Below, in pieces: positions 9,056 through 44,963 of a stretch of 64,000 nt of DNA (position 1 is its first letter; each line of letters starts with the position of its first letter). This DNA is from Pirellulaceae bacterium (GTDB lineage: Bacteria > Planctomycetota > Planctomycetia > Pirellulales > Pirellulaceae): contig JADYZV010000103.1 of the NCBI GenBank assembly GCA_020852965.1, positions 1 to 64,000 of the forward strand. The letters are read 5' to 3'. The notes under the pieces were generated by a model, which was not told the DNA's origin, ran no database searches, and saw nothing but the letters and a program-made list of their open reading frames with translations. Made by a program: the position numbers and the translations under genes.

Positions 9056-10207
9056 GTGAAACACCAACCGTTACTCAAGATTTTTTGCTCGATTGGCTGG
9101 ATGACTTTGATGATGGATGCTACCGCGCTACGAGGCGAAGAATTGACCGTGTGGCTGGGCACCAGTTCCGCCAAACCGAGCCAGGGGATCTATCAATGCA
9201 CGCTCGATAGCGAAAACGGTAAACTTTCCGAGTCGCGATTGGCCGCAGCCATGGTAGGCCCCGGCTTTCTAGCCATGCACCCCAAGTTGAACGTCTTATA
9301 TGCCGTGGGTGGTTTGGACGGAAAGGCTTCCGTCGTGGCTTACAGCATTTCGCGCGAGGCTGGCCGACCACAACTCAAGCTACTAAATTCTCTCGATATT
9401 GGCGACGGAGGGGCGACGCATGTCTCGGTGGACTCGACCGGCAAGACGCTCTTGACCGCACAATATGGCGGTGGCTCGGTTGCCGTCTTTGCATTGGCGC
9501 CAGATGGTACGCTCGAAAAACGCACAGCCATCATCGAACACAGCGGCGGCTCGCAGCAAGTCGCGGGTAGGCAGGATAGCCCGCACCCGCACTGGACCGG
9601 CTTCTCACCCGACAACCGCTTCGCCTTCGTCCCCGACTTGGGACTCGATCAAGTTGTCATCTACCAACACGATGCTGCGGGCGCGACTCTGACTCCACAC
9701 GGATACGGTCAAGCACCGCTTGGCGGTGGGCCACGTCACATGCGATTCCATCCCAATGGTCGTTGGATCTATGTGCTCAACGAGCTCGATTTGAGCGTCT
9801 CGGTCTTCGACTACGATGGTCAGGCTGGAACCATGCTTCTCAGGCAAACGATGCCAACGGTACCCAAGGAGCAATTGATCAAAGAGAGATTCAGCAGCGG
9901 CTCCGAGCTCTGCGTTCACCCGACAGGGAAATTCGTCTACGCGGCCAATCGCGGCCACGATACGGTCACCGCGTTTGCCATCGATCAGGGCACAGGGCAA
10001 TTGCAAGTCATCGAGCGCGAGCCGGTGCGCGGTGCCGAACCTCGCAATATCAATCTCGATCCCTCTGGCTCATGGCTTCTGGCCGCCGGTCAGGACTCAC
10101 ACACGCTGGCCAGTTTTCAAGTGAATCCTCAGTCAGGCGAATTGGTTTACAACCGGAGCGTTATTCAAACACCTGCACCAATTTGCATACTGTTTGATCG
10201 AGACTAG
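9056..10207 (+). CDS. Lactonase family protein (6-phosphogluconolactonase/YbhE-type beta-propeller), exported
   Basis: About 383 residues from a GTG at 9056, preceded by AAAAGAGAG; the earlier in-frame ATG at 9011 lies inside a repeat. An N-terminal hydrophobic signal (ending near ATALRGEE) is followed by a seven-bladed propeller of the Lactonase family (Pfam Lactonase): LGTSS, PGFLAMHP, GGATHVSVDSTGKTLLTAQYGGGSV, PHPHWTGFSPDNRFAFVPDLGLDQV, GGGPRHMRFHPNGRWIYVLNEL, and HPTGKFVYAANRGHDTV. The family hydrolyses 6-phosphogluconolactone in some bacteria; exported planctomycete members probably act on other lactones. The substrate is not readable from the sequence. Confidence 0.85.
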   Translation: MKHQPLLKIFCSIGWMTLMMDATALRGEELTVWLGTSSAKPSQGIYQCTLDSENGKLSESRLAAAMVGPGFLAMHPKLNVLYAVGGLDGKASVVAYSISREAGRPQLKLLNSLDIGDGGATHVSVDSTGKTLLTAQYGGGSVAVFALAPDGTLEKRTAIIEHSGGSQQVAGRQDSPHPHWTGFSPDNRFAFVPDLGLDQVVIYQHDAAGATLTPHGYGQAPLGGGPRHMRFHPNGRWIYVLNELDLSVSVFDYDGQAGTMLLRQTMPTVPKEQLIKERFSSGSELCVHPTGKFVYAANRGHDTVTAFAIDQGTGQLQVIEREPVRGAEPRNINLDPSGSWLLAAGQDSHTLASFQVNPQSGELVYNRSVIQTPAPICILFDRD

Positions 10208-10339: not shown

Positions 10340-11194
10340 ATGAGATTTCTAGATTCCTGCTGCGTGTTGCTGCCACTATGCTTCACGGCGGTGATAGCTC
10401 CCCTTTCTGCAGACGAATTGAACATCAGCTACGGGAAATCGCCAGAGCAAAAACTGGACGTCTATACCGCCGCAGACCCAGGTGATAAATCCGCAGCACC
10501 TGTTGTCATTTGGGTCCACGGTGGTGGCTGGCGAAACGGTGACAAAGACAATCTCAGCGGCAAGCGTTTGTGCAAGTCCTGGGCAAACCACGGGGTGACG
10601 ATGGTCAACCTCAACTATCGCCTGACGCCTAGCGTAGTTCATCCGGCGCATGTCGAAGATGTAGCGGCAGGCATCGCATGGGTTCATGAGAACATTGCTC
10701 GTTTCGGTGGCGACTCCAAGCGAATCTTTCTGTTGGGGCATTCGGCCGGCGCGCATTTGGTAGCTCTGGTCGCGACCAATCCCAAGTACTTGCAAGCGCA
10801 TGGCCTATTCCCGAACGAGACAATTGCCGGGGTCATGCCGATCGATACGGCTAGCTATGATCTTGTCGCAACCGACACGCGTCTCGTACGACGGATGATT
10901 CATGACGCCTTTGGCGATGAACCTGAAACGCTTGCCGAAGCTTCTCCCCTTCAGCAGGCTGAGAAGAATCGACAGATATGCCCGCCATTTCGTATTGCAG
11001 TTGTTAACCAGCGCAAGGAGGCTTTGCATGAATCTCGCTCGCTATGCGAAGTGCTACCGAAGTGCAAGCTGATCGTCATGGACTATCCACAACTAAGCCA
11101 ACTTCAATCGCATGCCGCGATCGCCCGCGACTTGATTGACCCTGAAAACTCGATGACAAAACAACTGCTCCAATTTGTGAAAGAAGGCAATTGA
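10340..11194 (+). CDS. Exported alpha/beta hydrolase (carboxylesterase/lipase type)
   Basis: 284 residues from the ATG at 10340, which has GGGGAG about 8 bases upstream; the longer frame from 10235 begins inside a repeat and is not supported. A signal peptide (SCCVLLPLCFTAVIAPLSA) precedes a hydrolase domain with the oxyanion-hole motif HGGGW, the nucleophile elbow GHSAG, and an Asp/His pair expected in the last third (HAAIARDL carries the likely His). The HGGGW form is typical of the BD-FAE/hormone-sensitive-lipase-like esterases. It follows the lactonase gene on the same strand, but a repeat lies between them. Confidence 0.82.
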   Translation: MRFLDSCCVLLPLCFTAVIAPLSADELNISYGKSPEQKLDVYTAADPGDKSAAPVVIWVHGGGWRNGDKDNLSGKRLCKSWANHGVTMVNLNYRLTPSVVHPAHVEDVAAGIAWVHENIARFGGDSKRIFLLGHSAGAHLVALVATNPKYLQAHGLFPNETIAGVMPIDTASYDLVATDTRLVRRMIHDAFGDEPETLAEASPLQQAEKNRQICPPFRIAVVNQRKEALHESRSLCEVLPKCKLIVMDYPQLSQLQSHAAIARDLIDPENSMTKQLLQFVKEGN

Positions 11195-31446: not shown

Positions 31447-31805
31447 CCACGAACGATATCTTTGTTGGTTGGTTCGCAGTTAGTATTCAGCGGAAAGTAC
31501 CTTAATTGGTGGGATTAGTATTCTCAGAAAACGAATGCTTGGAACAACAAGCCTTACGAATAGAGCATCGCGACGCTGAAAATGTGCCAGCGGGGAAACC
31601 ATCAGCGACCGACTCGCTTAGATGGGATACTCACCAAGATGGGGCCCAATTGCCTGCCATGCAATTAACTCCGCAGGGTGGGGTGGCACCACCTACTGCA
31701 ACGATAGTTTAATAGTAATTCCCCGGTTTTTTCGTACGAGCATCGTCTCACTTGTTAGAATCAGAAATGCTTATCAGCCGTTTCCCCAAACCTGGAGACA
31801 GCTCA
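31447..31805. other. Intergenic region upstream of PEP-CTERM gene
   Basis: No supported gene. The segment 31640-31690 contains a GGGGCCCAATTGCCTGCC stretch with a CAATT-rich dyad but no clear structured RNA. Confidence 0.4.
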
Positions 31806-32570
31806 ATGAGGACGCATTTCATTCTCGTAGTGTTGGTATGTGTTTGCTCAAGCACGATGGCTTTTGCAGATCTGGTCGCGGATGTCGGGGCGGGGCCAGG
31901 CGTAGGTATCTCAGTCACCTCTGGCACATCGATTACTGCCAAGATCATTTACATGCCTATCAGTCCACTTCCGTTTGACGGTGTTGGACTCGATTTGAAT
32001 TGGACGCCAACCGGTTCAGGTGCAGCCCTCTTCTCAGGACCGGCGCCAGGGGTTTTTCTTACTGGTGGTGCCGCTGGCGCCGCTCCAACATTGGGTCTAC
32101 TAAGTGGTGCGGGACCGATCCCCCCTGGCACGCCGCTAATCAATCCAGGCGTGCCGCCGGCAGCAGGGGCGCTTAGCGTTGGCGGCGGAGCTCATTTCGA
32201 TCCTACCGGTGGGGCAATGAGTGGCGGTCCTTCCTATGGCGTACCTTCAGGGAGTGCCCCATTAGATCTGATGGGTGCTGACTTTATCGTCACCGGAGCA
32301 GTTGGTGACACGATAACATTTACTCCGTCCGGTATTCTTCCCATTTCCGCAATTGGACCACCACTTCCTGTAGCAGGTTTTGCACCTGTTTCTGGTGGTG
32401 CACACTATTGGACCAATGTCAGCCCAGGGATGGGACTCAGCTCCATGGATCCGATGATCGGATCCGTTACGGTTACCATCTCAGCGATCCCAGAGCCATC
32501 CAGTTGCTTGTTTGCAGTAGTTCTATGCTGCACTGCGTGTATACGGTCCCGCAGATCCAGGGTCCGGTAA
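31806..32570 (+). CDS. Exported PEP-CTERM-type protein
   Basis: About 254 residues from the ATG at 31806, with GGAG 7 bases upstream and a signal peptide (HFILVVLVCVCSSTMAFA). The mature part is rich in Gly, Pro, Ala and Ser without charged clusters. The C-terminus has the sorting signal IPEPSS, a hydrophobic helix and a basic tail (RSRRSRVR), which exosortase cleaves in PEP-CTERM systems. Such proteins are exported and often linked to exopolysaccharide; the protein itself has no recognised fold. Confidence 0.82.
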   Translation: MRTHFILVVLVCVCSSTMAFADLVADVGAGPGVGISVTSGTSITAKIIYMPISPLPFDGVGLDLNWTPTGSGAALFSGPAPGVFLTGGAAGAAPTLGLLSGAGPIPPGTPLINPGVPPAAGALSVGGGAHFDPTGGAMSGGPSYGVPSGSAPLDLMGADFIVTGAVGDTITFTPSGILPISAIGPPLPVAGFAPVSGGAHYWTNVSPGMGLSSMDPMIGSVTVTISAIPEPSSCLFAVVLCCTACIRSRRSRVR

Positions 32571-32889
32571 CCTAAGCTTCTTTCGCTTCTGGGCGGCAAC
32601 CGATCGGACTATCTATCGGTGAGCGTGCTATTTTCGCCCACTAGCAAGTGGACTTTGATCTTGTCGACGTTACCGGTTGGGAATGAGCGGAGACTGCCAT
32701 AACCAGTGGTCTGGGGGTAGCCGCGGACGTTACCAGGTGAATATTCCCTTCCAACTTTTCTCGATTAAAGTCTCCCCAGCGCTTGACTGTTGGCAGAATT
32801 GACACATGTTTCAGTTGGGCCTCAGGGTAATGGGGCTCATCGGTGAACCGAGTCGAGGTTGGTCCTGGTGGATCTAAACAGGCTCCTGA
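32571..32889. other. Intergenic region ahead of the riboswitch
   Basis: A minus-strand frame of 99 residues (32641-32940) runs into the riboswitch aptamer and has no family resemblance. The promoter of the following operon is expected here; no confident -35/-10 pair was identified. Confidence 0.5.
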
Positions 32890-32975
32890 CGGTTCGTCCG
32901 ATAAAGGCAAACCGATTGCGAAGTCGGGACGCAAAGTCACGGGTCTCGCGTAGATAGCCGGACCGCCGAAGTACG
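32890..32975 (+). ncRNA. GEMM-I (cyclic-di-GMP class I) riboswitch aptamer
   Basis: All conserved blocks of the GEMM-I motif occur in order: AAAGGCAAACC (32903-32913), a P2 stem CCGATT/AGTCGG capped by a GCGA tetraloop, GGGACGCAAAG (32926-32936), CACGGGTCT (32938-32946), AGATAGCCGGACCGCC (32952-32967). A TCT/AGA P3 closing stem and an outer pairing (TTCG-TCCG with CGGA-CGAA) can be drawn. The base equivalent to G20 of the Vibrio Vc2 aptamer is G, which favours c-di-GMP over 3',3'-cGAMP. It lies on the plus strand about 65 bases ahead of the chemosensory-type operon. Confidence 0.92.
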
Positions 32976-32981
32976 AATTTA

Positions 32982-33010
32982 CGCAAGCGCGGACACCTGC
33001 ACGCGTTGCG
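32982..33010 (+). promoter_or_regulatory. Candidate expression-platform hairpin of the riboswitch
   Basis: CGCAAGCGCG (32982-32991) pairs with CGCGTTGCG (33002-33010) with one bulged base and a 10-nt loop, between the aptamer and the first start codon. There is no U tract, so it may work through Rho, anti-termination or ribosome access rather than intrinsic termination; mechanism not established. Confidence 0.5.
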
Positions 33011-33037
33011 ATGTCACACTAATCGTCAGTGAGTCCC

Positions 33038-33412
33038 ATGCATCAATCCAAGATACTGGTCGCGGATGACAGCCGCGCCGTGCGCGTTTGTTTGGAGCGA
33101 GTCCTCAAGGGAGCTGGCTATGAAGTTAGCGTGGCCTGCGATGGGGCGGAAGCGGTGCAATTGGCTCGCGAAGTCGCTCCCGATCTGGTCATCCTAGATA
33201 TTCAGATGCCCGAGATGGATGGCTACGCGGCTTGCGACCAAATTCTACAACACGCCCAGCTCCCCGTCATTTTCTTAACGAGAAGTCGAGCTACACAGCT
33301 CGATGTGTTAGGTCATCAACTCGGCGCATACATCCCCAAGCCGGCCGACGATCAAATGCTACTCGACACAGTCCGCGAGCTTCTTCAGTCGGCCAGCACC
33401 AGCTCTCATTGA
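33038..33412 (+). CDS. Single-domain response regulator (CheY-like receiver)
   Basis: About 124 residues from the ATG at 33038; an in-frame GTG at 33029 would add three residues. All receiver signatures are present: acidic pair DD (about residues 10-11, VADDS), phosphoacceptor Asp54 (VILDIQMPEMDG), Thr in FLTRS, and Lys in IPKPADD. There is no output domain, so it is a shuttle or sink type receiver that could be phosphorylated by the hybrid CheA encoded four genes downstream. It is the first gene after the c-di-GMP riboswitch. Confidence 0.92.
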   Translation: MHQSKILVADDSRAVRVCLERVLKGAGYEVSVACDGAEAVQLAREVAPDLVILDIQMPEMDGYAACDQILQHAQLPVIFLTRSRATQLDVLGHQLGAYIPKPADDQMLLDTVRELLQSASTSSH

Positions 33413-33423
33413 AAGCGGCGAAG

Positions 33424-33792
33424 ATGCAACGCGAGTCCCTCCTTTCCATGCAAGAAGAATTGCGCGAGTTTGTTATGCGGACCCAAATCAGGCTGACGAC
33501 TGTGCGAAAGTTGATGACCCACACGCGACCAGCGAGCAGGCAGAGTTCCATCGGCAGCGGCGATACACTCCCTCTCCATGTTTCGCCGCACTGCGGGGCT
33601 TTGATTGGAGATACTGCCGAGCATCAAGAGTTCGAAGCGAATCTGGAAGCAGCCTCCAATCTGTGTGCCGTGGTGCCTGAAGCTGCGACAGCATCTCCAC
33701 AGGATGCGTCGGAGCCGTCCCCCACGTCGACCGCCACGGATCGACTCGAAGCGATCAAGCGGCGATTGTCTGAGCAAATCCAGAAAAACTAG
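33424..33792 (+). CDS. Small coiled-coil protein of unknown function
   Basis: 122 residues from the ATG at 33424, 11 bases after the receiver stop; longer frames that begin earlier overlap the receiver gene and are rejected. An N-terminal helix (MQEELREFVMRTQIRLTTVRKL) is coiled-coil-like, the middle is low-complexity, and the C-terminus is again helical and basic (RLEAIKRRLSEQIQKN). No family recognised; it sits in the operon between the receiver and the CheW-like protein. Confidence 0.65.
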   Translation: MQRESLLSMQEELREFVMRTQIRLTTVRKLMTHTRPASRQSSIGSGDTLPLHVSPHCGALIGDTAEHQEFEANLEAASNLCAVVPEAATASPQDASEPSPTSTATDRLEAIKRRLSEQIQKN

Positions 33793-33813
33793 CCCGGATT
33801 CAAGGGAACCTAC

Positions 33814-34365
33814 ATGGCTTTGACTTCCACATTAACGCCCCGGCCTCACGCATCGCGCAGCGACATTTCCGCTTCCGATAAACATTGCGTTTTTCGTTGC
33901 GGTGATGCCTGGTTCTCTGTACCAGCGGTCGCCGTTCGCCAGCTTGTGATTACACCGGAGATCGTCCAAGTTCCCCATTGCCACCGCGCGCTGGTAGGGC
34001 TTGGGCGGCTGCGCGGAGAGTTCGTACCCATCGTTGCTTTGGGGAGACTGTTGGATATCGACCCGTCCAATCAACTTCCTATCGGAGATTGTCTTTTGGT
34101 CTTGGAAGGCAAGTGCGTTTGGTCACTTCTGATCTCCGAGTCGATAGCGCTTGAATCATTAGAAACCATTGTTTCGCAGGAAGCTAAAACGGAGTCGAAT
34201 CATAACGTCGCTATCGGAACGGCCATGTTTCAAGATCGCATCGTGCGCGTGTTGAATCCCAGCGGTCTGCTGGCCAGAGCTCAATGCGTCTTGGACCAGT
34301 ATTGGAGTCGTGCTGAAGTGCAGCCTACCTTGCCAACACCTCCAACAGAAAGGAACCGGCTATGA
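33814..34365 (+). CDS. CheW-like coupling protein
   Basis: 183 residues from an ATG with AAGGG about 8 bases upstream. A CheW-type beta-barrel is visible: [46 protein letters not shown] (the GL-x-RGxxxPIxxLxxLL core) and [23 protein letters not shown]. CheW joins chemoreceptors to CheA. It overlaps the following receptor gene by 4 bases, and lies in the same run as the CheA, so it is likely the dedicated coupler. The first 25 residues are additional. Confidence 0.85.
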
Positions 34366-35708
34366 AAACGCAAGTGTTCTTTCTACTGACCCATTTGGTT
34401 ACCGGCGCTGCCTCCGCAGGCACGCTTGCCATCGCACTATCGCTAGGAAGCGAACGGGCTACCATCGTCGGTTGCTTGGTGGCACTCGTCGTAGTTGTCC
34501 TGGCCGCCATATTCTGTGCATGGCGCATACGTCATGGACTCAACTGCTTAACCATCGTGTTAACCGACTATCAGCAAGCCGAGAAGCTGCACACCGGGCT
34601 GATCGATTTTGATTTGTTCGCGCACCGCCTGGCGACGTGCGCGGAACACTGGGAGGCCATCGCTGCCCAATCCCGCAACCAAAGAGGTGAATTTCAAGCC
34701 ATGATCGCCTTGCTGGATCGACGCGGACCGAGCGAATCGTGCAGCCAGCAACTACGCGGCGCGCTAGCCAGCCTCGGAAGGTCCGTCTACGGATATCTGA
34801 CCCAGTTTCACCAAGGTGCCGCCGAGATTGAAAGCTTGGCCAAATCAATTACCGAAAGGGCCGATGCCCAGGGGAACGCTGTCGTTAAGACCACCGCTTA
34901 CGTGGAACAGCTTTCAACGACGATCGATACCGTTGCCAACAACGCCGCAGCCGCACAGTCTGCATTCCGTAAGACGGTGAACTCTGCCGCGACGGCTTTG
35001 CAATTAGTCAACGAGCTGAATGACGGAATGCAGCGAGTGCAATTGGAGACCGAAAGTTGCGAAAAGAAACTCAAAGGGTTGTGTGACCCGGCCCGCCAAG
35101 TGAGTGCGATTGTCGGTACCATTGGCGAAATTGCAGCTCGCACCAATCTTTTGGCTCTGAATGCAGCCATTGAGTCGATTCGTGCTGGAGAGCACGGTCG
35201 TGGCTTCGCCTTGGTCGCGGACGAAGTGAGAAGCCTTGCGGAACAGGCGACGGACGCCACTCGAGAAATTTCGAACCTAATGGACTCCATGCAACTGGCA
35301 ACGCAGGAATCCATCCGTGGCGTCGAGCGTGAACGTGAGCTCGTTGCAGCGGAGGTACAACGCGCCGCCAGTGCCGAACAAGCGCTGCGCGAAATCGCAG
35401 AGCTAGGAAAAGACACGCGGTCGATCGAACAGATCAACGAATCTGCATCCCAGCAGCTTCAGTTGGCCCAGGGGATTATTCTAGCGATCGAACAAATATC
35501 CAGTATGGCAAAAGCTAATCGTGGAAAAGCGGAAAGTGTCAGTTGGACCATGAAGACGCTGACCAACTTGAATCCCCAGTTCGTCAAGGTCATTGATCGC
35601 TTGAGAAAATGCAGCGGCGAAGAATCATTTTCCCAAGATTCATCCAATACGAATCCCGTGATCGTGCAATCGTCCACACCGACCGTTGACCTAGTAGCCG
35701 TCGGTTGA
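34362..35708 (+). CDS. Methyl-accepting chemotaxis-type protein without a periplasmic sensor
   Basis: 448 residues; AAAGGAACC precedes the ATG. Two closely spaced hydrophobic segments (about 4-28 and 35-54) form a membrane hairpin with only a few residues between, so no periplasmic ligand domain. A cytoplasmic helical region follows, with the MCP signalling tip at about 255-300 ([38 protein letters not shown]). No CheR or CheB gene is near. The input is probably intracellular or comes through partner proteins, for example the neighbouring FHA or GTPase products (inference). Confidence 0.9.
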
Positions 35709-35718
35709 GGAAGGCCCT

Positions 35719-38514
35719 ATGAATCCAGATTGTATCACAGTCAACGAACTCTCCCTGCTTGAGGCAGATGAACTGCTGGTGGAGGTTCGTCTCGAATCAA
35801 CGGCACGGAACCAGCCAAAACTCTATGATTTCGCAGGCTTGCTACGGAACCTAATTGCGCTCCACCAAGGCCAGAGTGCAATCAAGGCTGAACGAAACCT
35901 AACTGACTTGACCGCCTTGATTGCCAAAGGGTTGGACGAGGTACGCGTCGTCATGGATGCTTTCCAGCCATGCTTCCAGCAAATCGATCTGTTGAGTGAA
36001 CAGGCGATTTCTCAATGGGGCGATCTGCTGGTTACCCTCAGCATCGATGGTGACCAAGCTCCCGGCGCGGCTTGGGATACGACTTCAGATTGTGAATCGG
36101 AAAATGCTACAGACGACGAAGAGAGCTTCGAAGTTCCCAGTGCGGATGCGATCCGAGCGATGCTGGGCCAAATCAGTGCGGTGAACCCCTCAACCACACC
36201 TGCGATCCCAGTTGAGGAAACCATCGAAGAAACCATCTCGGAAACGACCGTCGAAACAGCCGAAGAAATGACAGTGGAAGCGACTCTCCCCAGAGCTCGT
36301 ACACAGCAACCGATGAATACTCAGCCCACGGCCTCAGCGGTCGATGCACTCGATCCAGAGCTCCGCGAGGCGTTCATGGATGACGCGACCGCCTGCCTCG
36401 GTTCCATCGAAAACTCGCTACTACGCTTAGAGTCCAATCGTCACGACTCCGATTCGTTGGCTCAAATCCTTCGCGAACTCCACACGTTGAAAGGAGCCTC
36501 GGGAAGCGTAGGACTCATGGCTTTGGCCGACCATATCCACTCGATCGAGGACGGTCTGCGTGACGATCAGGCCGCCGGTCGTGAGCCGTCGGTCGATCAG
36601 TTGCTGACTCACGTCGATCAAATCCGAGCACAGATTGGCGGAAGCAATAGCCTGCCACAGCTTCATACGGAAACCACCTCTCCCACCAGTTCTCACAATT
36701 CATCAAACACGGAAAGTAGCGGGCCGCTGACAGCCCACGCGCCTGCGTTTTCCGATGAAGATGGGGACAACGAATCGGTTCGCGTCAAGTCGTCTCAACT
36801 CAATCGTCTCATGGACATGTTGGTTGAGCTGGTGATGCTGCGGAATCAACGCGAGACGGAACTAGCGGCGCTGCAAGAGGTTTATCACGAGCTGATCTCC
36901 AGTGGATCCAAAATGCGTCTGCTGAGCAACGATCGGTCGCTATGCTCCGATTCGGGTACATCGCTGCAACTTGCAGAAGTCGCCAGCGATGTCCTCGAGA
37001 CCGCACAACAGGTTCGCGAGTGCACTCGTCCGTTCGCAAGTGGCAATGCGGCCGTATCGCGATTCATCCGCCAGTTCCGACAAGAGTTGGTCGAATTACG
37101 CCGTACACCCATTTCCGGATTGTTTCAGCGATTGCAATTAGTGGCCCGCGAAGCAGCACGGGCTGAGTCCAAACAAGTTCGACTCATACTGACCGGCGAA
37201 GACGCTGGCATGGAGCGTGGACTTCAACAGCGATTGTATGAACCACTGCTTCACATTGTTCGCAACGCGATTTGCCATGGAATCGAATCTCCCGAAGAGA
37301 GGATTGCGCGCGGTAAGGCACCCGAAGGGACCGTTACCTTGGAGGTAACGTCGGGCCCCAATCTGTTCGCGATCGAGATTCGAGACGATGGCAGCGGCTT
37401 GGACTATGAAGCGATACGACGCCGAGGCTTGGAGCGCAAGCTGATCTCAGCAGACCAAGTCGTGGGGCGCGACGAGTTGTCACAACTCATTTTTCATCCG
37501 GGCTTTTCCACGCGAGAAAGTGCGAATCAGGTTGGCGGTCGCGGCGTAGGCATGGATGTGGTTGCCTCCACCATGCAACGCATGCGCGGCTGGTTTGAAA
37601 TCACCTCGGAGCCAGGTCAGGGGACGCGTATTCGACTTAGCATTCCGCTCCCCTCGGTAATACAACATGCCATGGTATTTCGCTGTGCCGACCAGCTATT
37701 TGCTCTGCCCATGGAATCGGTCCAGTCAGCCGGGGATGTCGCGAGCGACGTTCCGCGCACAAGTTTCGCTCGACTGCTCGGACTCGACACTTCGCACGCC
37801 TGCGAAGCGAGTCAGACCATCGTGGTCGCCGATGATCGCCTTGGATCCATGCAGGGTAAGCCCTCGCCGCTAGCCCTGTTCGTGGATGAGATCGTTGGGC
37901 CCGAGGAATTGGTGGTCAGGCCACTTCCATCCTTACTCAAGCGTCATCCCTTCTGCGTAGGTGCCACCTTGTCAGGCATGGGACATACGATACTGCTGCT
38001 GGATGCCCGTCGGCTGTTGAGATCCCCCACCACATCTCTCCAAAAAATGCTACCCGCGCCATCCGCAACGGTTGCGCCGCAATCGCAAGCTCAAACCCAA
38101 CGCTTGCGTGTCTTAGTGGTTGACGATTCGCTGAGTGCTAGAAAACGGGCCGTCCGTTCCCTAAGTCGCTACCCCATCGACATCGTGGAAGCATGCGACG
38201 GCAAGGATGCTCTCGAGCGTCTAAAGAAACAGGCGTTTGCTGCTGTTTTTAGCGACATGGAAATGCCAAACGTAGATGGTATGGAACTGTTAGCCAGCGT
38301 AAATGCGTCCGGCCGCAGCGACCTGCCCCCCATCGTCATTGTCAGTAGTCGGGCCGAAAAGGAATTTACCGAACGCGCGCGACAATTGGGGGCCGCAAAC
38401 TATCTAATTAAACCATTGGTCGACGAGGAGCTTGATGCGGCGTTGCTTCAACTTGCGCCTTTAAGTCATCTGGTATGTGACGTAACACTATTCGAATCGG
38501 AGAAACTATCGTGA
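35719..38514 (+). CDS. CheA-type hybrid histidine kinase with CheW and receiver domains
   Basis: 931 residues, 10 bases after the receptor gene, with GAGGAAGG ahead of the ATG. Order: an N-terminal helical region (1-120), a low-complexity acidic linker, an HPt domain with His255 (ELHTLKGASGSVG), the dimerisation/kinase core with the N box HIVRNAICHGIE (512-523) and ATP-binding DDGSGLD and GRGVGMDVV (556-615), a CheW-like domain (about 645-765) and a C-terminal receiver (about 796-915; Asp802/803, phosphoacceptor Asp846, Lys898). The kinase residues look complete. The architecture is that of gliding/twitching and sessile-behaviour Che systems (Pil/Frz-like), not flagellar CheA. Confidence 0.93.
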   Translation: MNPDCITVNELSLLEADELLVEVRLESTARNQPKLYDFAGLLRNLIALHQGQSAIKAERNLTDLTALIAKGLDEVRVVMDAFQPCFQQIDLLSEQAISQWGDLLVTLSIDGDQAPGAAWDTTSDCESENATDDEESFEVPSADAIRAMLGQISAVNPSTTPAIPVEETIEETISETTVETAEEMTVEATLPRARTQQPMNTQPTASAVDALDPELREAFMDDATACLGSIENSLLRLESNRHDSDSLAQILRELHTLKGASGSVGLMALADHIHSIEDGLRDDQAAGREPSVDQLLTHVDQIRAQIGGSNSLPQLHTETTSPTSSHNSSNTESSGPLTAHAPAFSDEDGDNESVRVKSSQLNRLMDMLVELVMLRNQRETELAALQEVYHELISSGSKMRLLSNDRSLCSDSGTSLQLAEVASDVLETAQQVRECTRPFASGNAAVSRFIRQFRQELVELRRTPISGLFQRLQLVAREAARAESKQVRLILTGEDAGMERGLQQRLYEPLLHIVRNAICHGIESPEERIARGKAPEGTVTLEVTSGPNLFAIEIRDDGSGLDYEAIRRRGLERKLISADQVVGRDELSQLIFHPGFSTRESANQVGGRGVGMDVVASTMQRMRGWFEITSEPGQGTRIRLSIPLPSVIQHAMVFRCADQLFALPMESVQSAGDVASDVPRTSFARLLGLDTSHACEASQTIVVADDRLGSMQGKPSPLALFVDEIVGPEELVVRPLPSLLKRHPFCVGATLSGMGHTILLLDARRLLRSPTTSLQKMLPAPSATVAPQSQAQTQRLRVLVVDDSLSARKRAVRSLSRYPIDIVEACDGKDALERLKKQAFAAVFSDMEMPNVDGMELLASVNASGRSDLPPIVIVSSRAEKEFTERARQLGAANYLIKPLVDEELDAALLQLAPLSHLVCDVTLFESEKLS

Positions 38515-40115
38515 GCCAACACACCGTTTTAGTTATTGATGATAGCGCCACCATTCGCAAACTAGTCGATCGACACTTGAGTGCCGTTGGCTATCGAGTC
38601 GTGTTGGCCGCCAATGCAGAGGAAGGGGTGCAGTTGGCTGCGGAGATCATGCCAGACCTGGTACTGCTCGATCACCAATTGCCGGGCACCACGGGCTACA
38701 ACGTGGCTACACAACTTTCTGAAACGGAAGCTTTGCGACAAATTCCAGTCGTCATTAGTTCAACGTTGAGAAAAAAAGCGTACGCAGAGTATATCGACTT
38801 GGACAATGTCGTTGATATGTTGCCTAAACCGTATACGGAAGAGCTGCTGCAGACAACCGTCGCAAACGCGATAGAAACAGCGGCGATGATCGTCGGATCT
38901 CAGTCGGGAGGGAGTGCGGTTCCCGAAGTTATCAATGCGCAGGATGAAGCCGCACTCACCGGAAACTTTTCCTTCTTCGGCCTACGCGAACTTCTCGATT
39001 TCCTAAACAATGGTCAGAAGTTGGGGGTCTTGGAGGTCGAAGCTGGACGCACCCGCATCCGCTTCCACCTCGAGAAAGGGCGCATCCAAGGAGTCTACGC
39101 GCACGGTATCGATCCACATGAAGTTGAGCAGATGACGGCTCGACTTCCCAAGTCGCTCACCAACCTCGCGCCGGTTCTCAAAATGACCGTCGGCGGTAGA
39201 AGCTGCACGGAAATCGACGGATTTGTGCAACTCCTCGATCAAAAAGTGCTCGATCCGCGTCTGATGTCGAAACTGCTTCGCTTCCAAGCGTCGATATTGG
39301 TTCGCTTTGCATTCACGCAGAAGTTGACCGCGTTTCGGTTCGAAGCAGGGCACACCCCCAACACGCTCCACCGAAGTTTGCCACTCGATATTAGCTTGTT
39401 GGCACTACTGGTCGAAGCGGCCATCTATAGCGATGACCAGCTACAAATCGATGACCAAACCACTTTCGTGCGTCGCGCAATCCGTGGGCAAAACCTAGAT
39501 CGCGCCGGTCTGTCCGCGCGGCACATGAACCTAATGAATGTCCTATCTGAGCCCAAGGACGCACGTGAACTCGTACGCACCCTTGGTTGGGATAGCGACG
39601 AGGTGGGGCAAGTTCTGCTCGCGTTCGAACAAGCGGAATTGATTGAAAGACGCGTGCAATCTTGCGCTGGACTGTTTGTCGTTTTTGAGCCAGATCCGAC
39701 TCACGCTCAGCGGCTACGCGAATCGCTGGAAGCATCCGACAATCGCTACAGTGGAAAAGTCGTACGTGACAAATTGGCGCTTCAGTTGGTACTCAAACGC
39801 ACGATCCCACACTCACTAATTTTCGCCGGTGATGATGAAGCCGCCTGTGCACTGATCGGAAAGATATTGGACTACGACGACCCACAAATCGAGCAAATGC
39901 AGCGCATCGTACTAACCAGCGACAGGTCCCACCGCGATGAGTGGACTCAGCAGCTTGGCTTCAGGGTCGATAGCACTCTTGCTCGCCAGAGCACGGCAAC
40001 GCAGTTGTTTGCAGTGCTGGATCGCTTGCAGAGTGGCAAGAACACCCCGCCACCATTGGCGACTGCGGGCTCCATCGACTCACCCCTTCTCGTTAATGCA
40101 GGAGCTGCATCATGA
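38511..40115 (+). CDS. Receiver plus PATAN (DUF4388) domain response regulator
   Basis: 534 residues from a GTG that overlaps the kinase stop by 4 bases. Residues 4-120 are a receiver (Asp10/11, Asp54 in LLDHQLPG, Lys106 in MLPKP). Residues about 155-260 match PATAN/DUF4388 (LTGNFSFFGLRELLDFLNNGQKLGVLEV, RIRFHLEKGRIQGVYAHG), a domain common in regulators of gliding and surface behaviour in cyanobacteria and myxobacteria. A winged-helix-like segment follows (LMNVLSEPKDARELVRTLGWDSDEV), and the last 130 residues look like a degenerate receiver without its phosphoacceptor. Likely an output of the kinase. Confidence 0.85.
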   Translation: MSQHTVLVIDDSATIRKLVDRHLSAVGYRVVLAANAEEGVQLAAEIMPDLVLLDHQLPGTTGYNVATQLSETEALRQIPVVISSTLRKKAYAEYIDLDNVVDMLPKPYTEELLQTTVANAIETAAMIVGSQSGGSAVPEVINAQDEAALTGNFSFFGLRELLDFLNNGQKLGVLEVEAGRTRIRFHLEKGRIQGVYAHGIDPHEVEQMTARLPKSLTNLAPVLKMTVGGRSCTEIDGFVQLLDQKVLDPRLMSKLLRFQASILVRFAFTQKLTAFRFEAGHTPNTLHRSLPLDISLLALLVEAAIYSDDQLQIDDQTTFVRRAIRGQNLDRAGLSARHMNLMNVLSEPKDARELVRTLGWDSDEVGQVLLAFEQAELIERRVQSCAGLFVVFEPDPTHAQRLRESLEASDNRYSGKVVRDKLALQLVLKRTIPHSLIFAGDDEAACALIGKILDYDDPQIEQMQRIVLTSDRSHRDEWTQQLGFRVDSTLARQSTATQLFAVLDRLQSGKNTPPPLATAGSIDSPLLVNAGAAS

Positions 40116-41527
40116 CGCACCAAACCCAAGTCGAACTGGTTGCCTGGCACCCCACCGGTTTCACCCTCCCCTTCGTGGTGCGAGCCGATCAATCGGTCCT
40201 CGTCGGTAAATCGAACAATTGTGGCGTTCGTTTACGTGGTCACGACATAGCCGACATCCATTGCAGTATCGGCTTGGGGGACGGTCAGTTGTGGGTCCAA
40301 GATTGGACGTCCGCTAGCGGTACCAAAGTCAACGGTGACCCGGTCACCAGCAAGACCTATGTCGGCCAGGGATGTGTGGTCGAAATCGGCAGTTACAAAA
40401 TCCAAGTCTCGACAGCCAATAAGACCACACTCGAGTCCAAAGGCGGTGGCGATACCAAACCTCATGCAACTTCGACTCCCGTCGGCCGAGAGGATTCGGT
40501 AGAGGATTCGTCAAGTATGTCGATCCAACCGTCCGCAGTGCCAACAGTTTGTGTCGCGTCGCACCGTGAAATATCAGCGTCTGCTCCGACGGCCATCGAA
40601 CACTTGACGCCGGCTGAACATGCTGAGCAGGCTCGAGCAGCTTGCCAAGGCGAGGGCCTTGCTCAGCTCGTGCCACCGACATCTGGCATCGACTTGCTGA
40701 CGCAGGAAGATGAAGCCTATGATCGCGAGACCGTCGAACTCCTGTTGGCGGAAATCGATGACTTGAGAACTGCGCTTGCCCAGGCCGATTCAAAGCAAAT
40801 TAATTTCGCCGACTCCATGCAAGATGTCGCGGATGACGCGGATGATTCGGATCGAGTGCTGTCTCGAATTCAGGAACTTAGTGAAGAAGCCAACCGAGCT
40901 GAGGAGCGTGTACTCCTGCTTGAGGAAATGCTCCACGCCGCTGAAGACGCCAATCGCTCCGAGGTCGAGGAGCGGTCCCACCTAGAGGCATGGGTGGGAG
41001 ATATCGAAAAACGGGTCGGCCAGCGCGAGGCAGAACATGCAGCCGAACTCGAAGCGCTGCGTGAACGCCTCGATTCGGCCGATAGAGCCAACGTTCAATT
41101 GCAGCGTCAGTTGCAGCATGCGGTCGCTGGTGGTGATGGCACCGACTCTCACGATGAGGACGTGTTGGAACAGCTTCAGCTCGAGAACGGGAAGCTACAA
41201 AATGCCTTGGTTGATGTCACCAAAGACTTGCGTCAGCTCAAGCAGAAGTATGAGAATCAATCGGAAGAGTCCGAAACGGCTCTTCGAGAGGAACGCGCTA
41301 AGATCGCGCGCGAACATGCGGATATGTCGCGATTGAAGTTCGAATACGCGCAGAAAATTAAGGAGTTAGAAGAGTTGCCGATGTCCACAGCTCATGCCGA
41401 CCCAAGCCGCCAAAGCGTACTCGAACACCGTCAGCAACTGCGCGAGATGAACCGCGAGAAAAAAGAGCGTCACGTGTCGCAGTCGCTTTCTGGTCGTTTG
41501 AAACGTATCTGGAATATGATCGATTAG
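40112..41527 (+). CDS. FHA-domain coiled-coil protein
   Basis: 471 residues; overlaps the previous gene by 4 bases. Residues 25-95 are an FHA fold (SVLVGKSNNCGVRL, IADIHCSI, VQDWTSASGTKVNG) in which the usual Gly-Arg is Gly-Lys and the Ser of the SxxH signature is not obvious, so phosphothreonine binding may be altered. From about 195 to the end the protein is predicted coiled coil (heptads with many Glu, Leu and Arg), suggesting a scaffold. The C-terminus KRIWNMID is encoded by the first unit of a tandem DNA repeat (41497-41665). The role in linking signalling proteins is inference. Confidence 0.85.
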   Translation: MTHQTQVELVAWHPTGFTLPFVVRADQSVLVGKSNNCGVRLRGHDIADIHCSIGLGDGQLWVQDWTSASGTKVNGDPVTSKTYVGQGCVVEIGSYKIQVSTANKTTLESKGGGDTKPHATSTPVGREDSVEDSSSMSIQPSAVPTVCVASHREISASAPTAIEHLTPAEHAEQARAACQGEGLAQLVPPTSGIDLLTQEDEAYDRETVELLLAEIDDLRTALAQADSKQINFADSMQDVADDADDSDRVLSRIQELSEEANRAEERVLLLEEMLHAAEDANRSEVEERSHLEAWVGDIEKRVGQREAEHAAELEALRERLDSADRANVQLQRQLQHAVAGGDGTDSHDEDVLEQLQLENGKLQNALVDVTKDLRQLKQKYENQSEESETALREERAKIAREHADMSRLKFEYAQKIKELEELPMSTAHADPSRQSVLEHRQQLREMNREKKERHVSQSLSGRLKRIWNMID

Positions 41528-41665
41528 CCTTTGGGCGTAGGGAAAACCGACGCGGAGCGTCGAGCCACATTGAATACGCATTTGGAACATGATCGATTAG
41601 CCTTTGAGTGTAGGGAAAACCGACGCGGAGCGTCGAGCCACATTGAAACGCATTTGGAATATGGT
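41497..41665. repeat. Tandem repeat of about 73 bp with REP-like palindrome at the FHA gene 3' end
   Basis: The last 30 or so bases of the FHA gene (TTGAAACG-ATCTGGAATATGATCGATTAG in two parts, 41497-41527) recur, slightly changed, at about 41570-41600 and 41643-41672. Between them lie two copies of CCTTTG-GTGTAGGGAAAACCGACGCGGAGCGTCGAGCCACA (given in part), each with the palindrome CGACGC/GCGTCG; read on the other strand each is GTGG-headed like the copies at 4681-4800. The array thus duplicates the gene end together with the palindrome. Confidence 0.85.
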
Positions 41666-41723
41666 CGATCAGCGATTGGCCTACGGCCCCTGGCACCGTA
41701 TTTGTCACTGATTGAGGTAGCTC

Positions 41724-42239
41724 ATGCTTACGCGTCAACAACCTTCAGGCAGCCGCCATGTCGCATTGGCGCCACCGATGGGTGATTATCCACAGCACAT
41801 CGTGGATGAGCTGGAGTCTGTAGTCAACGAGATCCACACTTTCCTGCAGGATTTCTGCGATCGCTTCGAAACATTGACGGCGCAGGCTTCCACTTCGCCA
41901 GAAAACGCCACCGATAAAGGTGACTCCGACGAATCGTCGGGGGAGTGGGAAAACAAACGCAAGCAAGCCGAACAGAGAATTGGTGAACAAGTGGACTTAT
42001 TAACCAATGCTTGGTTGCGATTGGAGGACGAACAAAGGGCTCTCCTGCAAGCCAAACAGGGGATGGCCAACGAGCTGAAAGCTCGTGCCACAACGTTCGA
42101 CTGTGGCTCTGCAAGTAGATTGCAATGCCTGCCTGGCAGTTCTCAATTCACAGCCAACATCGAACATTCCGCCGTTCATGAGTTTGAACGATTGCGGCAT
42201 GAGATTCAATCGAGTCGACCGAACATCAAGTCTCAGTGA
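41724..42239 (+). CDS. Small coiled-coil protein in the signalling operon
   Basis: 171 residues from an ATG with GAGGT six bases upstream, about 60 bases after the repeat array. Mostly helical and charged with heptads in the middle (EWENKRKQAEQRIGEQVDLLTNAWLRL) and at the start (HIVDELESVVNEIHTFLQDF). No domain recognised. Position between the FHA and FGE-fold genes, on the same strand with a 9-base gap to the next gene, suggests a structural subunit of the same system. Confidence 0.65.
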   Translation: MLTRQQPSGSRHVALAPPMGDYPQHIVDELESVVNEIHTFLQDFCDRFETLTAQASTSPENATDKGDSDESSGEWENKRKQAEQRIGEQVDLLTNAWLRLEDEQRALLQAKQGMANELKARATTFDCGSASRLQCLPGSSQFTANIEHSAVHEFERLRHEIQSSRPNIKSQ

Positions 42240-42248
42240 GAAGTAATT

Positions 42249-43280
42249 ATGTCGTTAACAACCATGGTCAGTAGCACTTTTGGCAAATGGACCAGTCGCC
42301 AGACAGCGCAGCTCGTCACGCGTGACGCGACGTTTCCCGATGTCTCGGAAGCGCCGCTCGACAGTCGCCGTTTAATCCGCGATCGACGCTATTGCCAAAT
42401 ACTTGCCAAGCACGGTGAACTGGAGTTTGATGACCTGTCGATTCAATGTGCCTGGCGCGCCCTACATCACGAAATGGCCTCCGTTCCGGGTGGTTCGGTA
42501 AGGTTGCTCGTTGACGAATTGGTCGAAGAGGATCGGCGGTACTACCTCAGGCCCACCGCCAGTCGGGAAGCAGTCGTCGATCCGTTCTTTATCGATCGCG
42601 ATTGTATAACCAACGCCGACTTTGCCAAATTTGTCCAAGTAGGTGGCTACGAAATGCCGCAGTTTTGGCCACAAGATGTGCTCCCCTTGGTGTTGCAATT
42701 TGTCGACCGCACGGGGCATACCGGACCACGCTTCTGGTCCGATGGAAAACCACTTGCAGAAAAGGCAGAGCATCCCGTTGTTGGCATTTGTTGGTACGAA
42801 GCAAACGCCTTTGCCAGATGGGCTGGAAAGCGGCTTCCAACTAGCGCGGAGTGGCAGCGGGCTGGAACTTGGCCGCGATGCCACGGCGGCTCAGAGCAAC
42901 GCTACCCCTGGGGCAATTCCTTTGAACGTTCACTTGCCAATATTTGGTCCCACGAGCGATGCGACACCATCGTCGTTAATGCGCTAGACGAAGCCAATAC
43001 GCCCAACGGTGTTCGGCAGCTAATCGGCAATGTCTGGGAATGGATCGATACGCAGTACCATCCCGCCCGAGAAGGCTCTGTCAAAGTCATCCTGCCGGAA
43101 GCGATGGCAGAGGTGCGCGGCGGAGCTTTTGATACCTATTTCGCGTCGCAAGCGAGCTGTCAATTTCGCACGGGTCAACCCATCCTAGATCGGCCTAACA
43201 ATGTCGGCTTTCGCTGCTGCGTTAGCCCAAACGAACTCCATTCACCAACGATGAAACCAGTCGAAGAATCCAACAAATGA
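42249..43280 (+). CDS. FGE/SUMF1-fold (formylglycine-generating enzyme-like) protein
   Basis: 343 residues. After about 100 residues of unknown fold comes the FGE-sulfatase domain: DPFFIDRDCITNADFAKFV, HPVVGICWYEANAFARWAGKRLPTSAEW (in part), RYPWGN, GVRQLIGNVWEWIDTQ, EVRGGAFDTY, NVGFRC. True FGEs carry a cysteine pair near the end (YCNRYR context); here only one Cys is seen there (SCQFR), with the other position not Cys. That argues against sulfatase maturation and for a binding role, as in conflict and signalling systems that use this C-type-lectin-like fold. It overlaps the GTPase gene by 4 bases. Confidence 0.85.
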   Translation: MSLTTMVSSTFGKWTSRQTAQLVTRDATFPDVSEAPLDSRRLIRDRRYCQILAKHGELEFDDLSIQCAWRALHHEMASVPGGSVRLLVDELVEEDRRYYLRPTASREAVVDPFFIDRDCITNADFAKFVQVGGYEMPQFWPQDVLPLVLQFVDRTGHTGPRFWSDGKPLAEKAEHPVVGICWYEANAFARWAGKRLPTSAEWQRAGTWPRCHGGSEQRYPWGNSFERSLANIWSHERCDTIVVNALDEANTPNGVRQLIGNVWEWIDTQYHPAREGSVKVILPEAMAEVRGGAFDTYFASQASCQFRTGQPILDRPNNVGFRCCVSPNELHSPTMKPVEESNK

Positions 43281-44170
43281 TTGCTACCACACAAACGCTC
43301 GACCATTGTTACTGCGCTTGTTGCTCATCGTCCTTCGAGCCCTACGACGACTATTGCAACAAGTGTCAAATGCCCACGTCTCTATCGCAGTCGGTTGCGG
43401 CTCAAGGAGGCGGACATACATTCATTTCGGTACTCGGGGCCAGCAACGCTGGAAAAACTGTCTACCTCGGCCTACTTCTCGATATCCTGAGCAAGGGGCC
43501 TGCCGACTTCAAAGGTACCGCAGCCAGCTCATTTGCCGTCGACCTACAAGAGTACGTCGTTAACGAACTCGAACGGCGATCGTTCCCAGAGAAGACTCCT
43601 TCGGAGGCCGACGCATGGCAATGGCTGCACTACAAGCTAACGATGCAGGAAAAAAAATCTAAGCGAACGGCCGATCTGATCTCGCCTGATTTTGCAGGTG
43701 AAGCCATCGCCACGGAGATTAGCCGCCCCGGGCTCTATCCAGCCGTCGCCCATGTCGTCAACCGCTCTAGCGGATTGCTCATCCTGTGCGACTCGGTCCG
43801 CGTGCGCGATCAAGGGGCCAGTGAAGATCTGTTCGCGATGAAACTGGCGAGCTACATTGCCGAACACCACAAGCTTTACTGTGAGAGCTTTGGAAAAGGT
43901 GGCAACGGCCCCTCGTTGGCCGTGGTGTTCACCAAGTGCGATGCGTGTCCCGAAGCGGTAAAAAACCCCACCGCATTCGCTGCGAACAACACTCCCAGGC
44001 TGCATGATTTCTGTCGCCAGACGTTTCGTCGCGTCGAGTTCTTTGCAGCCGGTGTGACCGGCAGCACCGGCGTTATCGCCGACACCAGAGGATTGCAGAT
44101 GTGCGTCCCCTTTCACATTCAGCCCTACGGGGTTCTCGAACCACTGCGGTGGGTCTTTGCCAACCAGTAG
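43277..44170 (+). CDS. Zinc-ribbon P-loop GTPase-like protein
   Basis: 297 residues. The N-terminus has a Cys cluster (CYCACC and CNKC, residues 11-30) that looks like a zinc ribbon. A P-loop GASNAGKT (54-61) begins a GTPase-like domain; a TKCD motif (FTKCDACPE, about 220) is a fair match to the NKxD guanine-specificity motif, and DFAG (about 140) could be the switch II region. The family resembles the TRAFAC-type double-GTPases reported in bacterial conflict systems. The next gene encodes a GTPase-associated-like protein, strengthening the assignment. Nucleotide specificity is inferred. Confidence 0.75.
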   Translation: MIATTQTLDHCYCACCSSSFEPYDDYCNKCQMPTSLSQSVAAQGGGHTFISVLGASNAGKTVYLGLLLDILSKGPADFKGTAASSFAVDLQEYVVNELERRSFPEKTPSEADAWQWLHYKLTMQEKKSKRTADLISPDFAGEAIATEISRPGLYPAVAHVVNRSSGLLILCDSVRVRDQGASEDLFAMKLASYIAEHHKLYCESFGKGGNGPSLAVVFTKCDACPEAVKNPTAFAANNTPRLHDFCRQTFRRVEFFAAGVTGSTGVIADTRGLQMCVPFHIQPYGVLEPLRWVFANQ

Positions 44171-44189
44171 TTTCTTTGTAAATCGCACT

Positions 44190-44963
44190 ATGAAAATTCA
44201 ACAAGCCATCTTCACTTCGTCCGACCGTGGCCAGATCAAAGGCTACCAGTTGGTGGCAGTTTCGGAAGGCATTGATCGCAGCCTATCGAGAGAACTGCAA
44301 CTTTGGTCTCCCAGCCACCTGGGCGAAGATGACCCTGCTAAGTGGACGATCAACTACTTTCCGGTATCCTTAGACCATGTCGCCGTGACGCGCACCGTGC
44401 TAGGTGGTCCGGAGTACAGCAGCCGCGGCGGGTCACAAGTCGTAACCCTGATCGCGGTTTTGCACAATCAACAATTTTCCGCTTACGACAACAACGCGAT
44501 GCTCGTAGCGCGCACCGCATTGGCCCTCGGTTGGCTACGAATTTCCAGCGATATTCCCAGTCGTCTGGAACCGATGGAACTGCCCGACACTCCTCTGCCC
44601 GCTTCTCGCGGTAGCTACAGCTTCTCTCCTCCTCAGATCACCGACCCGGTTGATCACTGCCCCTCCATTTCCGCCTCATCCAGAACCACGCTTGATGATC
44701 AGCTCGATGTCCACGTGCTAAGTAGCCTAACCGAGCGTTTGAAAAACAAACAGCGCATCGGCATCGTTGGTGCTCGCGACCCGCTGCATATGGTTGAAAC
44801 TTTCATCGAGCGCTTGCCCATAGCCAACCGCCGTACGTTTAGTTTTACGACCGGTTTGCACCCAACCTACAATCGGCCATTTCAAGCCCACTTTCTCGAC
44901 AGCGCCAGCCCCGCGCTTGTGCAAACGCTCAAGTCCGAAGGGATTATGCTGGTGGACCTGTAG
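44190..44963 (+). CDS. GTPase-associated (GAP1-N2-like) protein
   Basis: About 257 residues from the ATG at 44190; the frame is open to 44157 but that start overlaps the GTPase gene and lacks an RBS. The N-terminal pattern (IQQAIFTSSDRGQIKGYQLVAVSEG, LSRELQLWSP, INYFPVSLDHVAVTRTVLG, GGSQVVTLIAVL) resembles the GAP1-N2 domain that accompanies GTPases in bacterial conflict systems, and the gene lies directly after a GTPase-like gene. The C-terminal half carries helices and an ERLKNKQRIGIVGARDPL segment. The family call is by resemblance, not by a search. It closes the eleven-gene run. Confidence 0.6.
   Translation: MKIQQAIFTSSDRGQIKGYQLVAVSEGIDRSLSRELQLWSPSHLGEDDPAKWTINYFPVSLDHVAVTRTVLGGPEYSSRGGSQVVTLIAVLHNQQFSAYDNNAMLVARTALALGWLRISSDIPSRLEPMELPDTPLPASRGSYSFSPPQITDPVDHCPSISASSRTTLDDQLDVHVLSSLTERLKNKQRIGIVGARDPLHMVETFIERLPIANRRTFSFTTGLHPTYNRPFQAHFLDSASPALVQTLKSEGIMLVDL

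Follow-up and report, generated by a model that had tools for sequence, protein, structure and literature searches.

A planctomycete operon that joins a Pil/Pix-like chemosensory gene set to a DO-GTPase module and carries a c-di-GMP-I class aptamer in one subclade

The 64,000-nucleotide stretch of DNA analysed here (the window), positions 1 to 64,000 of contig JADYZV010000103.1 in a Pirellulaceae genome (assembly GCA_020852965.1; 8.37 Mb, 199 contigs, 99.5% complete), contains eleven same-strand genes, g01 to g11, occupying 33038–44963 of the plus strand downstream of a cyclic di-GMP (c-di-GMP)-I class riboswitch aptamer (Table 1). By Pfam, the gene order is a receiver (REC), a protein without a match (g02), CheW, a methyl-accepting chemotaxis protein (MCP) signalling domain, a hybrid CheA, a REC–DUF4388 (PATAN) protein, FHA, a protein without a match above cut-off (g08), an FGE-sulfatase fold, DO-GTPase1/2, and GAP1-N2. 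CheW, MCP, hybrid CheA, receiver, and receiver-PATAN thus occur together in the operon as a Pil/Pix-type component set. Neighbouring genes overlap by 4 bases at four junctions (g03/g04, g05/g06, g06/g07, and g09/g10), and the only wide intergenic gap, of 196 bases, separates g07 from g08. An initial annotation, made from the DNA letters alone, had described both the eleven-gene run behind an aptamer and several 4-base overlaps, and both descriptions hold: the run is supported by Pfam and is kept in related loci. We infer that g01–g11 form one transcription unit. Small open reading frames occupy the place of g02 in four relatives. The chemoreceptor g04 has a single predicted hydrophobic stretch (residues 26–44), and a sizeable extracytoplasmic domain is not apparent in it.

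Table 1. Features of the chemosensory-GTPase operon and its leader (window coordinates)
Feature	Position	Strand	Basis
P0 5′ side, candidate anti-Shine-Dalgarno strand	32881–32891	+	just upstream of aptamer
c-di-GMP-I class riboswitch aptamer	32897–32971	+	RF03167, RF01051, covariation, same place in 25 further genomes
P0 3′ side, covers ribosome-binding region	33024–33036	+	duplex energy, folding
g01, stand-alone receiver domain	33038–33412	+	PF00072, 86.8 bits; start ATG 33038 or GTG 33029
g02, small protein, conserved C-terminal segment (RLExxKRRL-like, by eye)	33424–33792	+	no Pfam match
g03, CheW	33814–34365	+	PF01584, 51.8 bits
g04, membrane chemoreceptor (MCP)	34362–35708	+	PF00015, 107.7 bits
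g05, hybrid CheA (Hpt, HATPase, CheW, REC)	35719–38514	+	Pfam
g06, receiver-PATAN (DUF4388) response regulator	38511–40115	+	PF00072, PF14332
g07, FHA and long coiled coil, conserved C-terminal motif	40112–41527	+	PF00498, 37.7 bits
g08, coiled-coil-like protein	41724–42239	+	no Pfam match above cut-off; coiled-coil look
g09, FGE-fold protein	42249–43280	+	PF03781, 135.9 bits
g10, zinc-ribbon DO-GTPase	43277–44170	+	PF19975/PF19993
g11, GAP1-N2 protein, predicted longin-like N-terminal fold	44187–44963	+	PF20013, 47.3 bits; 258 aa

Examination of related genomes shows that the gene order is kept in related loci and the core of the operon in Isosphaeraceae. Within a set of 60 genomes, source genome included, the GTPase is present in 28 and REC-PATAN in 6; four of these genomes (G007, G011, G018, and G029) have the chemosensory genes arranged as here, apart from the lack of g01 in G007, and the other GTPase loci consist of FGE and GTPase, mostly with GAP1, without the chemosensory set. 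In the family set of 241 genomes, again including the source genome, comparison of the hit lists (GTPase E ≤ 1e-20, REC-PATAN E ≤ 1e-40) places the GTPase in 72, REC-PATAN in 44, and both in 33; in G218 the GTPase and most operon genes are present, but REC-PATAN was not detected. FGE, GTPase, and GAP1 lie behind chemosensory genes in Rhodopirellula baltica, Stieleria, Roseiconus, Roseimaritima, and Laterigemmans, as well as in Singulisphaera acidiphila, Aquisphaera, and Tautonia, and the chemosensory part stands alone in Thalassoglobus, Fuerstiella, Planctomicrobium, and Mariniblastus.

By tblastn, the Isosphaeraceae loci contain MCP, CheA, REC-PATAN, FGE, GTPase, and GAP1, with no CheW match and mostly no match to g01 or g07; g02 and g08 are too divergent for tblastn in many related loci. 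The g07 counterpart of Singulisphaera acidiphila, between REC-PATAN and FGE, has the coiled coil and the C-terminal motif but no FHA match. One contig with an Isosphaeraceae-type operon (L188) also has a group II intron match at 27–120.

Evidence that the two halves belong together comes from a GTPase tree of 68 long loci, in which a GTPase was scored as linked if CheA or REC-PATAN lies within 13 kb upstream, and as stand-alone if neither occurs in 5 kb or more of available upstream sequence; one sequence that was short or held a stop, seven without enough upstream DNA, and 23 same-sequence duplicates were left out. A single branch with 100/100 support parts the 46 chemosensory-linked from the 22 stand-alone GTPases exactly, and this split is present in 100% of 200 bootstrap trees (the tree being unrooted). 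When the linkage labels are shuffled, about 19 changes are needed on the same tree. The linked GTPases range from Pirellulaceae to Isosphaeraceae. The initial annotation had named the regular occurrence of the two halves apart as an observation that would count against a joint system. All 46 GTPases on the linked side are chemosensory-linked; in other lineages the halves do occur separately, as chemosensory and FHA genes without the GTPase and as FGE, GTPase, and GAP1 genes of the second GTPase type without chemosensory genes.

The two types differ in their FGE-fold proteins. By a simple hydropathy criterion, an N-terminal membrane helix is present on FGE in 15 of the 22 stand-alone loci and in none of 45 linked loci, as would follow if the membrane anchor came from the receptor array; the GTPase core may thus have lost its own anchor when it joined the array. 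In the stand-alone type a coiled-coil gene often precedes FGE (one cluster of 10 loci), and since the C-terminus of g08 resembles, by eye, that of this coiled-coil protein, g08–g11 look like the same four-gene core as the stand-alone clusters. A motif tally for the gene before FGE (1/45 linked, 13/22 stand-alone, and 18/425 in the background) was not used, because it mostly picked g07 in linked loci. FGE-fold proteins of both types share one near-invariant cysteine (C304) near the usual active site, and the second of what we take to be the two active-site cysteines of true FGE is apparently missing. An enzymatic role was considered for these proteins and not adopted.

The GTPase g10 keeps the P-loop AGKT, the CxxC pairs, and PDxAGE, and the many G domains matched by its model (pLDDT 84) include those of septin, GBP1, and Rab proteins. 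The AlphaFold model of g11, built with 26 homologues (pLDDT 87), has an N-terminal β-β-α-β-β-β-α order of strands and helices, the order found in longin domains. The first-ranked Foldseek match is TagF (probability 0.80), a weak one (E 8e-3, rmsd 11.3), and the first five also include folliculin–FNIP2 (0.98) and GATOR1 (0.96), both with E 0.017–0.022 and TM 0.23–0.30, and a Lokiarchaeal Roadblock-Longin protein (0.87). GAP1 thus weakly resembles, at the level of predicted structure, the longin folds of GTPase-regulator complexes, and if this reading is right, fold and gene context alike would mark it as a GTPase regulator. Comparison of a GAP1 profile with the sequences of solved structures gave two matches, both above E 0.05 and unrelated by name. 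Among the 26 homologues, PF20013 matches 25, GAP1-N1 matches six weakly, GAP1-M matches four (best E 2.6e-4), and GAP1-C matches none; no roadblock domain was found in g11 by Pfam.

The leader RNA is, judged from its sequence, a true c-di-GMP-I class aptamer. The stretch 32897–32971 matches the Rfam family RF03167 (c-di-GMP-I-GGC) with 67.3 bits (cut-off 59, E 9.6e-14) and RF01051 with 61.7 bits (cut-off 35), so the variant scores best rather than canonical c-di-GMP-I, and the aptamer proposed in the initial annotation, with RF01051 as its suggested check, is confirmed. Its 3′ end lies 66 bases upstream of the more likely initiation codon (ATG 33038) and 57 upstream of GTG 33029. Of the 18 predicted pairs, 8 show compensatory change in an alignment of 18 of the 26 leaders described below, this locus included. 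The columns that map to the ligand-contacting G20, A47, and C92, on what we take to be the Vc2 numbering, are unchanged in 18/18 leaders; in the available text of PMC7288161, G20A and G20A/C92U mutants are reported to bind cyclic GMP-AMP and c-di-AMP.

Two further c-di-GMP-I aptamers occur in the genome. The best-scoring one (78.5 bits; L059, G000:C14, about 10345–10433, minus strand) precedes a gene of unassigned family followed by Tad and TadE pilus genes, and a third (L060, G000:C185, about 9781–9860) lies about 830 bases before a cytochrome PSCyt1-PSCyt2-PSD1 gene.

The aptamer is a feature of one branch of the operon's distribution. An Infernal scan of 46 chosen genomes with RF01051, under stricter filters, was compared with operon positions and placed an aptamer directly upstream of the operon in 26 of the 28 genomes of one subclade, source genome included: g1 (3), g75, g76, g79, and g81 (1 each), g82 (5), and g86 (14). 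G193 and G218 lack an aptamer before the operon, and G207, on a contig without the upstream part, was left uncounted. None was found before the operon in 23 loci examined outside the subclade genera (G018, G029, G092, G103, and G113; six g78 genomes with upstream DNA; L152, L155, L156, L158, and L159; six Isosphaeraceae-type loci; and Thalassoglobus). Since 26/28 genomes inside the subclade carry it vs. 0/23 loci outside, a single gain of the aptamer that postdates the formation of the operon is probable. In G007 (L033, 4859–5631; aptamer intact) and G230 the aptamer is kept with no g01 match behind it, indicating that it travels with the operon rather than with g01; the G230 copy (L107) has an outer-loop insertion of about 60 bases in its second long helix and nevertheless reaches 42 bits. 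Of the 241 family genomes, 128 have an RF03167 match, far above the 26 with one before the operon. Control by c-di-GMP, as the initial annotation envisaged it, therefore stands to the extent of an aptamer in 26 genomes, but as a trait of one subclade and not a defining part of the operon. The further suggestion in that annotation, that c-di-GMP level may be coupled to assembly of a signalling array, stays conjectural.

The leader shares the conserved core and helices of c-di-GMP-I riboswitches (RF01051 and RF03167) and differs in its target operon and, in part of the subclade, in a helix with pre-aptamer sequence that may hide the start. Eleven bases before the aptamer are able to pair with the ribosome-binding region (P0), and the duplex between 5′ flank and start region reaches –21.8 kcal/mol vs. 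–11.7 ± 3.0 in shuffled sequences, with 1 of 500 as low; the G011 leader likewise has 1/500 shuffles as low. Across the 11 non-g86 leaders, own pairs of flank and start beat swapped pairs (permutation p 0.0118), and this leader's own pairing ranks 1 of 11. With the two aptamer helices and short inner pairs, but not P1, enforced in the folding, exposure of the start falls from 0.38 to 0.10. These calculations suggest translational control in this genome through a helix of pre-aptamer sequence with the ribosome-binding region, and the better guess, for this genome only, is an OFF switch in which the ligand-bound form would hide the start. As a general rule the start-hiding helix was rejected, its support being confined to this leader, G011, and the 11 non-g86 leaders. 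An intrinsic terminator as expression platform was also rejected: none lies between aptamer and start on the plus strand, and terminator-like sites number 19 vs. 13.0 ± 4.1 expected.

Judged by its genes, the operon resembles several known systems and coincides with none of them. In the Myxococcus Frz system, a chemosensory array with a hybrid CheA feeds the MglA GTPase and its regulator, with coiled-coil and receiver adaptors. The operon differs from Frz-MglA/MglB in that its GTPase is of PF19975/PF19993, GAP1-N2 (PF20013) stands in place of the roadblock protein MglB, and the genes lie in one run. The cyanobacterial Pix/Pil/Hmp (Tax) systems have the same component set and the gene order receiver, CheW, MCP, hybrid CheA, receiver-PATAN. 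Like these, the operon combines an MCP-type receptor with a PATAN response regulator within a single chemosensory system; it differs in adding the FHA/coiled-coil, FGE-fold, DO-GTPase, and GAP1-N2 proteins and, in one subclade, the riboswitch. In the review PMC7690835, type IV pili are given as the probable target of PATAN regulators, with PixE working via the motor ATPase PilB1.

A zinc-ribbon DO-GTPase followed by GAP1-N2, with an FGE (FGS) partner in some planctomycete systems, has been described by Kaur et al. 2020 (PMC7159879, available text), and these features are shared by the operon. It differs from the GAP1-N2 DO-GTPase systems in having no FNIII protein by Pfam, a short GAP1 (258 aa), and a link to chemosensory genes. 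The word “chemotaxis” has no occurrence in the main text of PMC7159879, where longin and roadblock are likewise unused. The operon is thus, on its gene content, neither a Frz-MglA system nor, by the FNIII/effector criterion, a standard GAP1-N2 conflict system. Of the initial claim that the combination was undescribed, the chemosensory and c-di-GMP part stands: we found no description of the joined chemosensory-GTPase operon and its c-di-GMP link in the open-licence literature. The association of FGE, DO-GTPase, and GAP1-N2 had been described (PMC7159879). Each part belongs to a known family, and what appears new is the joining of a chemosensory system with a GTPase module and a c-di-GMP aptamer.

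The genome's two CheW-domain matches both lie in this operon. There are also two matches in G007, G029, G092, G141, G212, G236, and G241, and one in G142, and the operon may be the only chemosensory system in those eight genomes too. CheR was found in seven of nine genomes tested; it is absent from G029 and G092, and receptor methylation is therefore not a constant element of the system. PilT-family ATPases were above cut-off in all nine genomes tested, located outside the operon.

Our preferred interpretation, held tentatively and at somewhat less than an even chance, is that the operon encodes a Pil/Pix-like chemosensory array with a lastingly acquired GTPase module (g08–g11), whose output would include a GTPase/GAP1 switch setting surface motility and which would be riboswitch-adjusted in one subclade. 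The receptor array would set CheA activity, and CheA would phosphorylate its own receiver, g01, and the receiver-PATAN protein. PATAN and the coiled-coil/FHA proteins would then link the array to the GTPase/GAP1 pair, and the nucleotide state of the GTPase would set where or whether a surface motility machine is active, most likely type IV pili and possibly the flagellum. In one subclade the c-di-GMP-I riboswitch in the leader would adjust expression of the operon. By analogy, the best reading is that it would work like Myxococcus Frz-MglA with unrelated parts. This interpretation is supported by the aptamer and its covariation, by the conserved gene order, the GTPase tree, and the FGE anchor difference, more weakly by the longin likeness of GAP1, by the PilT matches in 9/9 genomes, by the confinement of all CheW domains to the operon, and by genus g78, which keeps the chemosensory and FHA part and in four of eight loci has GAP1 after the FHA/coiled-coil genes, with no FGE or GTPase match in the eight loci. 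The g78 loci with GAP1 are L110, L112, L113, and L135, and several conserved GAP1 positions differ in the aligned L110 and L113.

A number of results weigh against this array-and-switch interpretation. The GTPase is, from gene distribution, not essential to the array: in a wider contig scan with the REC-PATAN alignment (best 80 of 114 loci, 65 compared with all operon genes), the GTPase was present in 36 loci and missing from 29, several of those on short contigs, and 11 REC-PATAN genomes of the family set lack it. Genus g78 accounts for eight of the 11. In G085 and G214 the contig breaks off within the operon, and G022 (L116, G022:C776, 1–10000) is a true exception, with REC-PATAN at the contig start and no FHA, FGE, GTPase, or GAP1 match over the next 8.6 kb. 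The operon contains no pilus or flagellar gene, and FliG_M matches 221 of the 241 family genomes, source genome included, so that either organ may be the output. Other operon genomes have more CheW matches, up to 12 (G240). For g11, no Foldseek match has E below 0.001, TM-scores are 0.23–0.37, and lower probabilities go to other chains of these complexes (0.41–0.75) and to their further entries (0.41–0.91). The riboswitch element is weakened by the leaders themselves: neither G212 nor G213 supports a start-hiding helix, the 14 g86 leaders show no such effect (permutation p 0.27), and with aptamer helices enforced in 25 leaders, Shine-Dalgarno exposure goes down in 6, up in 3, and hardly changes in 16. 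Neither a promoter excess nor a terminator was found in the leader.

A bolder form of the same idea is that the operon represents an independent class of chemosensory-GTPase polarity system, so far in Planctomycetes, in which a pilus-type array drives a DO-GTPase through a longin-fold GAP1 and c-di-GMP sets the amount in one branch; we regard this as possible but doubtful. If true, the proposed “conflict” GTPases would be signalling GTPases, at least here. The locus would join three signalling languages (phosphorelay, GTPase, and c-di-GMP) and suggests a new wiring of sensing to cell behaviour in a fixed-order planctomycete operon. Planctomycetes alternate swimming and attached budding cells, and to our knowledge little is known of their surface sensing.

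General flagellar chemotaxis, in which g07–g11 would serve only for array scaffolding or polar placement and c-di-GMP would toggle swimming vs. settled life, is unlikely, but it is the outside alternative that we take most seriously. The source genome has FliG_M, g01 could be a CheY, and both CheW domains lie in the operon; yet G241 has the operon and no FliG_M match, CheR matches in the source genome lie only in open frames of at least 588 aa and are missing from the same two genomes noted above, and REC-PATAN proteins are linked to pili in cyanobacteria (PMC7690835, available text).

The label “conflict-type” given to the GTPase pair in the initial annotation derives from PMC7159879 and probably does not fit this locus. 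A defence system, with DO-GTPase/GAP1-N2 as the switch of Kaur et al. and the chemosensory array as sensor, would account for the DO-GTPase, GAP1-N2, and FGE families, which are named there (FGS effectors in some planctomycete systems, in the available text of PMC7159879), but we consider it improbable. Pfam recognised no FNIII component, effector domain, protease, pore, or nuclease among the eleven genes, and PADLOC, run on six of the eleven proteins, gave partial, weak matches only (SduA, PD-T4-6, LmuB, and DrmMII; E 8e-7 to 7e-3). Gene content is steady across many genera, and the two GTPase types lie on separate sides of the tree. Defence genes, unlike this operon, are expected to show turnover. 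The operon offers instead a steady context, effector-free by Pfam, for a GTPase family that has until now been assigned to conflict systems, and its function becomes testable.

The first rank of TagF for the GAP1 model and the FHA gene in the operon recall type VI secretion, which TagF represses by binding Fha (PMC5995506, available text). Control of an FHA-centred assembly along these lines, in which a TagF-like GAP1 would bind g07 and block an envelope machine while the GTPase sets the threshold, has only a slight chance of being right: the TagF match is weak, the Singulisphaera g07 counterpart has no FHA match, and the eleven genes include no Ser/Thr kinase or phosphatase by Pfam. That the halves are independent neighbouring modules sharing a promoter and riboswitch for co-expression only is very improbable, because, although each half is found without the other in other lineages, every linked-type GTPase with upstream DNA (46) is chemosensory-linked and the FGE anchor differs by type.

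Outside the operon, the preceding protein (31797–32570) has a PEP-CTERM-like C-terminus, read from its sequence, and no Pfam match, and the next gene, for an AspT-type antiporter (45310), has no match in the relatives' loci. The gap between g07 and g08 contains imperfect direct repeats (41498–41679), which start within the final 30 bases of g07 and occupy most of the gap, with a spacing of about 73 bases, two copies of 72 nt at 93%, and a partial third. Each full copy contains, on the minus strand, a short GC-rich hairpin followed by T.

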